64,000 nucleotides of DNA from Methanogenium organophilum (GTDB lineage Archaea; Halobacteriota; Methanomicrobia; Methanomicrobiales; Methanomicrobiaceae), in contig NZ_CP113361.1 of the NCBI RefSeq assembly GCF_026684035.1, positions 1,054,001-1,118,000 of the forward strand, given 5' to 3'. This document shows, in pieces, positions 51,826-56,550 of this stretch. Both the position numbers and the translations under genes were made by a program. Below the pieces are notes generated by a model. The model was not told the DNA's origin and ran no database searches. It saw only the letters and a list, made by a program, of their open reading frames with translations. Positions within the stretch are counted from its first letter, which is position 1, and every line of letters starts with the position of its first letter.

Positions 51826-53268
51826 TCAGGAGGAAAACACGGAACTCCGTGAAATTTTCCAGTTTTCCGGAGGTACGGTAAGAGAAAAGACAGCACCCCT
51901 CCCTTCATTACCCGTTTCCTGGATAGTGATGCCGCTGACAGAAAGGATCTCCCGTGCGAGGTACAATCCATACCGGGTTTTTATTCCAACACCCCGTGAA
52001 AATATCTTGTTTTTCCGATCATCAGGGATACCGATGCCATCATCGGAGACAGTGATGACAGCACTGCCCTCTGGTGTAAGGGTGCAGGAGACCATGATTG
52101 TACTCACGTCACCCCCATGCCGGACCGCATTCGTAAAGAGTTCATGCATCACCCGCTCCAGCATTGGATCCGCATAGACACTGATATTCCGGCAGGTACA
52201 GGTTATCGTAAGAGAGGATAATTCATCAGACAAAGCGGCAACACGGTCCACCATCACTCCAATATCCTGCCAGGCATGGGGCTTCGAACCGAGATCTTCA
52301 TAGTCGCGGGTGAAGACGATCTGGTGTTCTATTGCGAGCGCAGCCTCATTGATCTTTGCGAGCTGAACCCAGGTATCGGAGTCCGGGTCCACCTCACCAG
52401 TCATTTCCATAATATCAAAGAGCATCCGGATGACCGTCACCTGATTGAGAATATCGTGCCGGGTCACTGATGAGAGCATTGCAATCTTCTTTTGCGCCTC
52501 ACGGATAGCCTCATCCTTCTTCACCGTATCCGTAATATCCTGATGGATTCCCACCACCCGGAGGACCGGCTTTGCATCCGGACTCCAGAATACCTGCCAT
52601 TGTGAACGGACCCATACCCAGCTGCCATTCCTATGTCGCAACCGCATTTTCAGGGAGCCAGTCGGTCGTTTGCCCCTGCTCCATCCTGAGAAAAGGCTGA
52701 GAAAGGTATCCCTGTCATCCGGATGCAGATACTCCAGGAACGCATCGACGGTAAGTGGGTTCAGCTTCTCGGGCAGATAGCCAATCATATTCGCCCAACG
52801 CCCATCAACTCTCATCTCACCGGACCGGACGTTCATATCCCAGGTCGCAAGGTCAGCACACTTGATAGCGAGATTGAGCCGTTCATCATTATGCTGCGGT
52901 GCATTCAACGTGCCCACGTTTTCAGAAACCGGAATGAGATGGAAAGAGTACCATTCTCCGTCATTTTCAGACCCGCAGGACACCATGACATCAAGGGGTC
53001 TGCCGGGATTCTTTCGTCCCGCGGGGATACCTGAATAGGTGAATGTTCCGGTTTTCCGGGTTTTGCAGGAGATATCTTCCCAACCACTGAGACCAACCGG
53101 GATAAGAAAAGAGATCGCTGGTTTACCGAACAATCCATCCGGCGATGCACACCCCAGAATCCGAGCTGCCACAGCATTGGCCCAGATAATCGCTCCATCC
53201 GGATCTGCGAACAGCAGACCATATGGTGCATTCTCACAGAATTCACGACACCTGTCCGCCAGGGGCAT
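51826..53268 (-). CDS. Soluble PAS-domain histidine kinase
   Basis: 480 residues from the ATG at 53268 (gaagga upstream); a TTG at 53286 would add six residues. The first PAS-like domain begins FCENAPYGLLFADPDG, and a PAC-bearing PAS domain (GEMRVDGRWANMIGY with LRHRNGSWVWVRSQW) follows. The H-box VTRHDILNQ, N-box ELFTNAVRHGG and G-box SDDGIGIPD complete the kinase. No membrane helix. Divergent from the transporter/binding-protein pair with 211 bases between, so control of that pair is possible. No response regulator neighbour. Confidence 0.9.
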   Translation of the reverse strand: MPLADRCREFCENAPYGLLFADPDGAIIWANAVAARILGCASPDGLFGKPAISFLIPVGLSGWEDISCKTRKTGTFTYSGIPAGRKNPGRPLDVMVSCGSENDGEWYSFHLIPVSENVGTLNAPQHNDERLNLAIKCADLATWDMNVRSGEMRVDGRWANMIGYLPEKLNPLTVDAFLEYLHPDDRDTFLSLFSGWSRGKRPTGSLKMRLRHRNGSWVWVRSQWQVFWSPDAKPVLRVVGIHQDITDTVKKDEAIREAQKKIAMLSSVTRHDILNQVTVIRMLFDIMEMTGEVDPDSDTWVQLAKINEAALAIEHQIVFTRDYEDLGSKPHAWQDIGVMVDRVAALSDELSSLTITCTCRNISVYADPMLERVMHELFTNAVRHGGDVSTIMVSCTLTPEGSAVITVSDDGIGIPDDRKNKIFSRGVGIKTRYGLYLAREILSVSGITIQETGNEGRGAVFSLTVPPENWKISRSSVFSS

Positions 53269-53479
53269 ATCTTTTCCTTCAGACAACTAGAACACCTTTT
53301 CAGGAGAAACAGGCATGGACCCATCACAGACCAGACCAATAAACATCCTCTATATTATTAGTACTATGGAATACAGACTAAAAAAAGTTCAGCATCATAC
53401 GCATGCGCCAAATGGTTTCATTATCAATAAATACTCACAATAAAAGACACTATCCATTATTCGAGAGAAATCCAGAGAA

Positions 53480-55390
53480 ATGACTGGAAAAATCCGTCAT
53501 AATATTAAATACAGGGCTCACGACTATATCCGATTTCTCGGCCCCGGCCTTCTGCTGGCAGTCGCTGCCGCAGGCGAGAGCGGTATAGCAGAGGCTGTCG
53601 AAATTGGCGCCCACTTCGGTTATGCCCTCATATGGGTCATTGCAATCACCCTCATCTATAAATTTGCATTCGTAAACGGCATTGCCCGCTACACAATGAT
53701 CACCGGAAAAACCATCTTCCAAGGTCTCATCTCCATTCCCGGCCCGAAAAACTGGGGAGGCATTCTTGTGATGGCTATCTATTTCCTTGAGATGTTTGCC
53801 TTTGCAGGGATGTTGCTTTTGGGTGGTATTTTTATTGATTACATCATCCCAGGCATCAACTCGACTGAGATGATCGTCTTCATCTCTCTTTCGGCTATCC
53901 TGATCCTGCTCTGGAAAGAGTCATACGAACGGCTGGAACACACAATTGTTGCAATTGCTCTCCTCCTCTTCATAGGAATTGCCTTCTCCCTCACACAGTT
54001 TCCCATCTCCCTGAGTGCGATGATTCCAGGACTGGTTCCCCATATCCCTCCCTCGTCTCTCCTCTCCATTATGGCTCTTATGGGTGCGGTTGGTTCATCC
54101 CTGAACCTTCTCTTATACTCCATCTGGCTTAAAGAGAAGATAGGCGATGAGAAGGGGCCGGCATTCTATCGGAAGGCAATTCAGGGGGTAAATCTGGACC
54201 TTATCATCGCCTTCCTCTTTGTGGGCATCATCACCGTTCTCTTTATTTCTCTTGGTGTCACCGGATTCTCCATCTCATACCTGGAACATGGAGAGGTATT
54301 CAGCGTTGACGCACTTATTGCTCAGGTGCTCTACGTCATATCCTCCATTCCATATGGACCACAAACCTTTCTTGCAACCGGCTACCTCATCATGTTTGGT
54401 GCTGTCCTCACGGGGATGGATGGCCGGGCACGAGCTATCTCTGAGGTTCTGCACACCGGATATGCGATGAAATGGGACGAGCGGACCACCTTCCGCCTCA
54501 TCCTTCTGCTCTTCACCATGATCATTGTGAGCGGCGTTCTTATCGGACAGCCGATGATGCTCGTCCACGGTGTATCAGCGATTGCCTCCGTGTTCTTTGC
54601 CGTGATGGGATTCATTATTATTTATCTTAATATGGAGATCAAAGAGCCGGAACGGCCCAACCGGCTCTGGACAGCGGTCATGACCATCGGTAGCCTGATC
54701 TTCCTCATGATGGCTCTCTTTATGGAAGAGGGCATCATAATGTTCGGCATTCCCCTTGCAGAACGCATGATCGTTGTTGCCTTTGTGGTCCTGATCTTTG
54801 CCGGTACCACCCTCTTCCGTGACCTCATCCAGGGAAACACGACCTGGATCGACCGATTTTGGACTGCCCTCATATTTGGAGCACTCTCCATCTACGGAAC
54901 CTTCCGGGGGATTCCATTTGAAGGGGTGATCATCAACTTCCGTGACTTGGGGCCAATACTTGCAGGAATTGTCGGAGGACCTGTCATCGGGGCAGCGGCG
55001 GGCATCATCGGTGCGGTATACCGCTACCAGATTCCCGGAATGGAGAAGACAGCCCTTGCCTGTGCTATCGCAACCATCGTGGCGGGTATTGTGGCAGGGT
55101 TTTTTACCCGAATGTTTCGTGGAGATATTACCTACCTTCGTGGATTCATTCTTATCGCCATTGTCGAAGCGATACACATCTTCATCATCGTGCCTCTCTT
55201 CTCTGACATTGGCACCTTTGCTGATTTTATGATCATCGTCCGGGCCACCCTACTGCCGATGATCTTCGCAAACACCCTCGGGGTAATACTCTTCTGCTAC
55301 ATCATCCAGATGAAAGGGTACTCTTTGACCACCCGGTTTACCAAAACACCTGAGGAGAAACCGCTACAGGAAACAGAGGGAGAGCAATGA
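53480..55390 (+). CDS. Nramp-like transporter fused to a 5TM-LYT (LytS-type) membrane domain
   Basis: 636 residues, nearly all membrane. Residues 1 to about 410 follow the Nramp layout: GPGLLLAVAAAGESGIAEAV aligns without gaps to the family's TM1, but the metal-binding D-P-G-N is replaced by G32-E-S-G35. The TM6 M-P-H region is S206-S-L208 followed by NLLLYS. From about 475 the sequence becomes a 5TMR-LYT domain (GIPFEGVIINFRDLGPILAG, GGPVIGAAAGIIGAVYRYQ), as in LytS-type sensors. Such a fusion and the altered sites make ordinary manganese or iron import unlikely. The gene overlaps the binding-protein gene by 4 bases (ATGA). Confidence 0.85.
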   Translation: MTGKIRHNIKYRAHDYIRFLGPGLLLAVAAAGESGIAEAVEIGAHFGYALIWVIAITLIYKFAFVNGIARYTMITGKTIFQGLISIPGPKNWGGILVMAIYFLEMFAFAGMLLLGGIFIDYIIPGINSTEMIVFISLSAILILLWKESYERLEHTIVAIALLLFIGIAFSLTQFPISLSAMIPGLVPHIPPSSLLSIMALMGAVGSSLNLLLYSIWLKEKIGDEKGPAFYRKAIQGVNLDLIIAFLFVGIITVLFISLGVTGFSISYLEHGEVFSVDALIAQVLYVISSIPYGPQTFLATGYLIMFGAVLTGMDGRARAISEVLHTGYAMKWDERTTFRLILLLFTMIIVSGVLIGQPMMLVHGVSAIASVFFAVMGFIIIYLNMEIKEPERPNRLWTAVMTIGSLIFLMMALFMEEGIIMFGIPLAERMIVVAFVVLIFAGTTLFRDLIQGNTTWIDRFWTALIFGALSIYGTFRGIPFEGVIINFRDLGPILAGIVGGPVIGAAAGIIGAVYRYQIPGMEKTALACAIATIVAGIVAGFFTRMFRGDITYLRGFILIAIVEAIHIFIIVPLFSDIGTFADFMIIVRATLLPMIFANTLGVILFCYIIQMKGYSLTTRFTKTPEEKPLQETEGEQ

Positions 55391-56550
55391 AGAAGATAGC
55401 CCTTGAATACCTACCTTTCATTATCACAGGCCTCATCTGCTGTTTTATATTCGCAAATGCAGTTATTAACACGCCTGATTACGGCGAAAATGAAACGATC
55501 AAAATCGGCATTATGGTTCCACTTTCTGGTGGTCTCGGGGAATATGGGATGGATGTAAAAATCGGCGTCGACATGGCGGTCGATGAAATCAATGCAAAGG
55601 GTGGTATCGGGGGTAAAATGGTTCAGGCGGTATATAAAAACACCTGGGGCCACCCGGAGCGTGATGCAACACTTATGAAAGAATGTGCAGACGAGGGCAT
55701 TCCTGTCGTCATTGGCGATATCACTAGTGCAGGTGCTCTGGCATGTGCAGAAATTGCTGAAGATGAAGGAATTGTCCTTATCTCCCAGGCGGCCACCACA
55801 CCGGAGCTGAGCGGGTACGGTCCATACGTCTTCCGCACCATCTCATCCGATACCTATCAGGGGAGAGGCATGGCAAGAATCTTCCAGATATTCCACCCCA
55901 ATGCAGACAATATCACCGTATTGTATATTGACAATGCTTATGGCACTGGTCTCGCAGAGGCATTTATGCATGCTAAAGAGGAGGGCGGATTCACCGTGCA
56001 GCAGTCTATTCCCTTTGAAGAGGGACAGCGCATCTTCACCCATGAAATTACGGCAATTCGTGAAGCAGATTCAGATGGTATCGCCCTTATCGCTCATGTC
56101 ACTGAGGCAAATTACATCCTAAAGGAAGCGGAGGCACAGGGACTCGACGTTGCCTGGGTTGGGTCAGACGGCATCGTCACCACCGAATTCTATTCCCATG
56201 TCGGCACCTATGCAGAGGGCTTCATTGCGACAATGCAGGCAAGCGAGGTTCAGGACCCGGCATTTATTAACGAGTACCGGATACGGGCCAAAGAGAGCAC
56301 CGTCAACTGGATGGCCCCCTATTCCTATGATACCATGATGGTCGTCGCCGAAGCCATTGAACATGGCGGATATTCAGCAGATGCGATTCGTTCATCGCTA
56401 GAAAATATCCGTCACCTTGGTGTATGCGGACCGAAGGTCTTTGAAGATAACGGCGACATCCCCCCCGCATATGATGTGATGCGGGTTGAAAACGGAATTT
56501 GGACACGGGTCTCATGGAAGGAGATCACATCTGAGACCTCGCTCCACTGA
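55387..56550 (+). CDS. LivJ-like extracellular ligand-binding protein, membrane-anchored
   Basis: 387 residues. The first hydrophobic stretch YLPFIITGLICCFIFANAV has no lipobox and no clear cleavage site, so it may stay as an anchor. The rest is a type I periplasmic-binding fold of the Leu/Ile/Val (LivJ) class: IKIGIMVPLSGGLGEYGMD, AVDEINAKGGIGG, VVIGDITSAGALA and ISQAATTPELS. The ligand is likely an amino acid or small organic acid. No ABC permease or ATPase genes occur nearby; it overlaps the Nramp/LYT gene instead, so the two probably work together. Confidence 0.9.
   Translation: MKKIALEYLPFIITGLICCFIFANAVINTPDYGENETIKIGIMVPLSGGLGEYGMDVKIGVDMAVDEINAKGGIGGKMVQAVYKNTWGHPERDATLMKECADEGIPVVIGDITSAGALACAEIAEDEGIVLISQAATTPELSGYGPYVFRTISSDTYQGRGMARIFQIFHPNADNITVLYIDNAYGTGLAEAFMHAKEEGGFTVQQSIPFEEGQRIFTHEITAIREADSDGIALIAHVTEANYILKEAEAQGLDVAWVGSDGIVTTEFYSHVGTYAEGFIATMQASEVQDPAFINEYRIRAKESTVNWMAPYSYDTMMVVAEAIEHGGYSADAIRSSLENIRHLGVCGPKVFEDNGDIPPAYDVMRVENGIWTRVSWKEITSETSLH

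Follow-up and report, generated by a model that had tools for sequence, protein, structure and literature searches.

A LivJ-like binding protein paired with an Nramp-like/5TM-5TMR_LYT fusion devoid of the SLC11 metal ligands: a candidate archaeal transceptor

We describe two overlapping genes of Methanogenium organophilum which we interpret, with moderate confidence, as encoding a transceptor that a binding protein supplies with a small organic solute, most likely an amino acid. Both lie in the window, meaning the whole 64,000-nucleotide stretch of DNA that was analysed, and belong to a complete 2.65-Mb genome. In the proposed mechanism, a membrane-anchored LivJ-like protein would capture an extracellular alpha-amino acid and pass it to an Nramp-like LeuT-fold domain which, being without the SLC11 metal site, would bind and probably import the organic solute. 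The LytS-type domain at the C-terminus of the same chain would sense a small carboxylate, pyruvate-like, at a conserved Arg pair, and would either set the state of the transporter or report to a histidine kinase. The predicted fold, the fusion, the operon, the pairing and the conserved or lost residues are observed, and transport, the identity of the ligand, the contact between fusion and binding protein and the signal output are elements that we infer.

We favour this reading because the metal site is absent from 40/40 aligned relatives, although its TM1 Asp is described as universal in SLC11 (PMC8806188), and because the 32 gene pairs form one clade, with an exact overlap in 16/32 and LIV permeases in 0/37 pair-bearing genomes versus 91/231 of the class search. 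It is further drawn from the conservation of the LivJ pocket residues and of the equivalents of BtsS R72, R99 and C110, from a predicted fold that matches Nramps and then APC amino-acid transporters, and from sister forms, as one clade sits behind REC-HisKA_2 kinases and the longest variant ends in a kinase-like predicted fold. Finally, growth on 5-oxoproline depends on PxpT, a protein of the NRAMP family (PMC13274462).

Results

The fusion gene is an open reading frame at 53480–55390 of the forward strand, encoding 636 residues, with coordinates that proved exact upon checking. It is followed on the same strand by the gene of the LivJ-like protein (55387–56550, 387 residues with a hydrophobic N-terminal segment; Peripla_BP_6 by Pfam, E 2e-42), and stop and start overlap by 4 nt (ATGA, 55387–55390), in agreement with the translational coupling claimed in an earlier note on this DNA. 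The divergent soluble PAS kinase which that note also reported is likewise present: a PAS-PAS-HATPase histidine kinase by Pfam, with 486 residues and a TTG start, it is encoded on the reverse strand at 51826–53286, 193 bp from the fusion gene. Scanning the fusion region for consensus promoters and terminators was uninformative.

The Nramp layout that had been attributed to the N-terminal half is supported by both profile and structure comparisons. The LeuT-fold domain spans residues about 14–415 (53519–54724, forward strand), with a Pfam Nramp match at residues 36–375 (E 8e-16; 58.5 bits, cut-off 29.8) and an NCBIfam Nramp_1 match of 67.3 bits (cut-off 50), and the two fusions of this genome are its sole Nramp matches by Pfam. 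An AF2 model of the whole chain, built on a 40-row alignment (mean pLDDT 79.8, pTM 0.69), retrieves Nramps first in Foldseek (8e60 and 10ky, TMt 0.82) and thereafter APC amino-acid transporters, including ApcT and y+LAT2. In this model TM6 is broken at 204–207 and TM1 is one unbroken helix.

The residues expected to coordinate the metal are nevertheless missing, as the earlier note had proposed, and the loss is family-wide. At the D-P-G-N of E. coli MntH, TM1 reads G32-E33-S34-G35 (53573–53584, forward strand), and Gly occupies both the Asp and the Asn position in all 40 aligned relatives, so that neither the DxxN motif of SLC11/NRAMP membership nor at least its Asp is present. The break of TM6, G205-S206-S207-L208-N209 (54092–54106, forward strand), replaces the region of the M-P-H motif, the other SLC11/NRAMP hallmark: a gapless HMMER alignment places S-S-L at the M-P-H of B. 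fragilis Nramp, a MAFFT alignment with E. coli MntH introduces a 2-residue gap and reads L-L-Y, and M-P-H is produced by neither and found in none of the 40 relatives. Homologues in which both motifs are intact were thus not found among them. For comparison, NRAT and NRMT have DxxN-AxxT and DxxG-TxxA/T, respectively, at these sites (PMC8806188), and Nramp-related proteins are known to vary at the metal-ligand positions (PMC12873925).

Other residues of this half are strictly kept. Across the 32 paired fusions G32, E33, G35 and E38 in TM1, E104 in TM3, G205 in TM6 and D314 and R316 in TM8 are invariant, and S206, L208 and N209 in TM6 nearly so. The conserved E33, E38, E104 and D314 could possibly form a cation site within the paired clade. 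The E33 equivalent is Arg in the 1152-residue form and Trp in stand-alone relatives, which indicates that this residue is no family-wide metal ligand. The earlier claim that the ligand is not a metal is likely, given the ligands lost in 40/40 relatives, if tempered by the four invariant acids of the paired clade. The stand-alone Nramp-like relatives (L067:9198-10448, L068:8552-9802, L069, L070, L071 and L090) read G-W-[VIL]-G in TM1 and have neither a LytS domain nor metal ligands.

The chain then enters a 5TM-5TMR_LYT domain (PF07694, S-component-like) at residues 444–611 (54809–55312, forward strand; E 2e-36, over the cut-off), as had been claimed, and carries the NxR motif of 5TMR_LYT receptor domains as N486-F-R488. 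Alignment with BtsS of E. coli K-12 places R488, R515, C528 and A531 (54941–55072, forward strand) at R72, R99, C110 and S113, so that three of the four pyruvate-contact residues are retained in this putative carboxylate site. Most paired fusions keep the equivalents of R72, R99 and C110, the fourth position being usually Ala or Gly. In BtsS all four are required for pyruvate binding and S113A kills the response, and Ala or Thr is found at this position in some other LytS proteins (PMC10653868). The Arg pair is lost in five paired fusions (L046–L050), which suggests that carboxylate sensing is dispensable for pairing there, and is half lost in the kinase-paired clade and in L054–L055. The chain ends ~25 residues past the LytS domain, with no C-terminal cytosolic output domain of the kind found in 5TMR_LYT sensor kinases. 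The genome has two 5TMR_LYT domains, both on Nramp-LYT fusions.

Relatives, full-length or partial, were found in 176/232 genomes of the class, many of these being LytS-domain-only matches. Several families of the class carry full-length fusions, which occur across Methanomicrobiales, and in the search of the phylum outside the class a single genome, G472, yielded a long relative (1126 residues, three LytS domains). The neighbouring pair predicted by the earlier note recurs in other archaeal genomes: at 32 of the fusion loci inspected a binding-protein gene is adjacent on the same strand, downstream in 31, and in half of the 32 the overlap is exactly 4 nt. Strong binding-protein matches beside a fusion, counted by eye from two tables, amount to ~36 genomes. 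In the phylogeny the 32 fusions with a binding-protein partner fall into a single clade (support 100/98) and five kinase-paired fusions into a separate one (100/99); a third comprises the long forms, with long branches meeting there. The tree label 'HKfus' also includes L115, in which Pfam finds three LytS domains but no kinase. Within the genus dN/dS is ~0.1 for both fusion and binding protein. Fusion and pairing are beyond chance, considering the class-wide recurrence, the single clade of 32 and this dN/dS.

As dozens of independent assemblies carry the fusion unbroken, and a paralogue lies in the same genome, a sequencing error or frame-fusion artefact joining two otherwise separate halves is rejected. 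In G015 and G019 (L072) the fusion appears as two neighbouring frames, by assembly error or real split. Lineage-specific neighbours include a phosphofructokinase, ADP-forming acyl-CoA ligases, an MCR glutamine methyltransferase and a xanthine/uracil permease, and no consistent ligand clue emerged from the metabolic neighbours of the fusion loci. The gene just upstream of one fusion, L044:7401-8771, matches methyl-coenzyme M reductase glutamine C-methyltransferase, and similarly sized genes adjoin fusions in L042–L049.

The binding protein was analysed by alignment with LivJ and LivK of E. coli K-12, the aligned positions being those which we take to be the amino-acid pocket. Virtually every complete paired binding protein retains residues equivalent to LivJ S79, T102, Y150, acidic 226 (E/D) and Y276; position 202 is variable. 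Judged by the Pfam match and these residues, respectively, the fold of the LivJ/HAAT family and its amino-acid pocket are maintained, and the pocket fits an amino acid, in line with the amino-acid-type protein that had been claimed.

The earlier note had also considered this protein an orphan without an ABC permease, and the survey agrees. The complete M. organophilum genome holds no BPD_transp_2 permease, and hence no LIV (HAAT) ABC system by that family, and no other Peripla_BP_6 protein. A LIV-type permease over the BPD_transp_2 cut-off is found in none of the 37 pair-bearing genomes and in 91 of the 231 of the class search (Fisher p 1e-9; the test makes no correction for shared ancestry, and family is a confounder). 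Ordinary LIV clusters do exist elsewhere in the order, and one was confirmed (L083), where a binding protein lies beside two LIV permeases; it is ~24% identical to the binding protein described here, and no close relative was found in such a position. The ABC-3 genes of L044, considered as a nearby ABC partner, belong to a different transporter class. Relatives of the binding protein of ~720 residues were considered as receptor kinases and dismissed, since the three scanned carry Peptidase_C13 instead. These proteins (L074:1433-3532, L079:2075-4204 and L080:372-2531) combine Peripla_BP_6 with this legumain/caspase-like peptidase in a single chain of ~700 residues, and several further class proteins of that size are candidates for the same fusion. 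Another variant, L075:2295-4580, is a tandem double binding protein (761 residues, two Peripla_BP_6) in a genome that also has a fusion pair.

Kinases accompany the sister forms. The second Nramp-LYT fusion of M. organophilum (42% identical; L034:7180-10559, genome position about 1.27 Mb) is preceded by a REC-HisKA_2-HATPase kinase, and in all five clade-B loci (L034, L040, L052, L120, L121) a REC-HisKA_2 kinase lies 15–135 bp upstream on the same strand. Signalling is thus well supported for sister clades. All Methanogenium clade-A loci examined have the divergent PAS kinase of the window (a contig end cuts two, and the frame is broken in L037), which is absent from the loci examined in other genera. 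Being conserved only within the genus, it is neither a general partner of the fusion nor a general part of the fusion/binding-protein unit, to which the earlier note had assigned it. Most binding-protein-paired fusions outside the genus have no kinase within 5 kb, and a signalling output is not evident there.

Four loci (L063:2685-6143, L064:7388-10846, L065:8875-12378, L066:1433-4876) encode a form of ~1150 residues that has an Nramp-like part and two LytS domains and ends in a histidine-kinase-like stretch; a phosphofructokinase-family gene follows in 4/4. The modelled C-terminus of the 1152-residue form (pLDDT 62.5) matches histidine-kinase DHp-CA structures (293 hits at E<=0.001), and its profile comparison with local kinases was not significant, so that it is the predicted fold which identifies it as kinase-like. 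In the weak profile alignment an Ala stands at the position of the phospho-acceptor His, and the typical N-box/G1 residues are apparently missing, which suggests that this C-terminus is probably a degenerate kinase. A relative outside the class (L115:6828-10208, L116) has three LytS domains in a row and lies beside a MASE3-PAS-HisKA_2 kinase; in the same genus group, G536 has a stop-ridden remnant only.

Discussion

Several observations count against a transceptor, namely the invariance of E33, E38, E104 and D314, the loss of the Arg pair in L046–L050, the few nearby kinases outside the genus, the Mn claim made for YcsG and the unbroken TM1 of the AF2 model, and other readings of the pair have to be weighed. 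Binding protein and Nramp-like domain could be a pure receptor that senses an amino acid without importing it, the LytS domain signalling to separate or fused histidine kinases. Such a function would be in keeping with the kinase operons of the sister clade, the kinase-like C-terminus predicted for the 1152-residue form, the divergent kinase of the genus and the role of LytS domains elsewhere as kinase inputs (PMC10653868, PMC11109136). However, most paired fusions have no neighbouring kinase, purifying selection acts on the whole Nramp-like core, and the fused kinase-like domain apparently lacks both the phospho-acceptor His, by the weak profile alignment, and the typical N-box/G1 residues; we consider a pure receptor unlikely.

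A cation transporter with a remodelled site under LytS regulation, which is how NRAMP-5TMR proteins have been interpreted in print, namely as combining divalent-metal transport with sensing, appears less probable still. The Pfam and NCBIfam matches, the conserved buried acids, the suggestion in PMC11109136 and the Mn claim for YcsG (PMC10448178) point in its direction, but Gly at both DxxN positions in every relative aligned, the missing MPH, the Arg or Trp in place of E33 in sister clades and a partner protein of the amino-acid-binding rather than metal-binding type argue against it. Very improbable, in our estimate, is that the binding protein works for a different permease and is merely co-transcribed with the fusion: binding proteins can indeed work with distant permeases, but here the pairs form a single clade in which the two genes are neighbours on one strand and often overlap by 4 nt, and no pair-bearing genome has a LIV permease over the cut-off. 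The amino-acid transceptor remains our preferred reading.

If this is correct, the widespread archaeal NRAMP-5TMR architecture would be understood as serving the uptake and sensing of organic solutes instead of metal transport, binding proteins would have another route for feeding non-ABC transporters, and a transporter fold and a receptor fold would be clearly combined in one chain. A bolder form of the proposal, which we advance tentatively and with less than even confidence, is that this is the first LeuT-fold transporter to depend on a binding protein. On this view the amino-acid transceptor would derive from Nramp, be metal-free and receive its substrate from a LivJ-type receptor; it would carry an S-component-like sensor of carboxylates within its own chain, and sister lineages would have related versions that act as kinase-coupled sensors.

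The unit is not undescribed as regards its domain architecture, contrary to the earlier note. NRAMP-like domains fused to 5TMR have been reported as prevalent in archaea and read as divalent-metal transporters with sensing (Commun Biol 2024, PMC11109136), and the window fusion, with PF01566 followed by PF07694, is a member, having the same two domains in the same order with the 5TMR C-terminal. The available part of that study of the S-component fold does not discuss lost metal ligands, a binding-protein partner or a kinase-paired clade, and in the limited open-access literature covered we found no prior report of these or of the absence of LIV permeases.

With SLC11/NRAMP proteins (MntH, BfraNramp, NRMT, NRAT), its best structural and sequence match, the fusion shares the LeuT fold, and it differs in having neither the TM1 Asp/Asn nor the TM6 Met/His motif and in its additional LytS domain and binding-protein partner. 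PxpT/YcsG also belong to the NRAMP family by TCDB (PMC13274462, PMC10448178), but are single-domain proteins encoded beside pxpABC, with no LytS domain or binding protein reported. That PxpT is needed to use 5-oxoproline, which resembles an amino acid, sets a precedent for organic substrates, though a disputed one, since the PxpT homologue YcsG is claimed to import Mn. As to the second half, the pyruvate receptors BtsS/LytS (PMC10653868) have a 5TMR_LYT domain with R72, R99 and C110, all of which have equivalents here, whereas S113 is Ala and the domain is C-terminal, with a ~25-residue tail and no kinase in the chain. CbrA (PMC13022988, PMC7096432) is likewise a LeuT-fold transporter domain chained to sensory parts, with an amino-acid substrate, and is an instance of such a transporter acting as a receptor (PMC13022988). 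It is an SLC5 protein with a STAC linker and a same-chain kinase and has no binding protein, while the window fusion is Nramp-like and yielded no SLC5, STAC or kinase domain in the Pfam scan. The working analogy for the pair as a whole is provided by the TRAP/TTT systems (PMC5812351), in which a binding protein feeds a non-ABC secondary transporter, although their membrane folds and binding-protein families differ from those of the pair described here.
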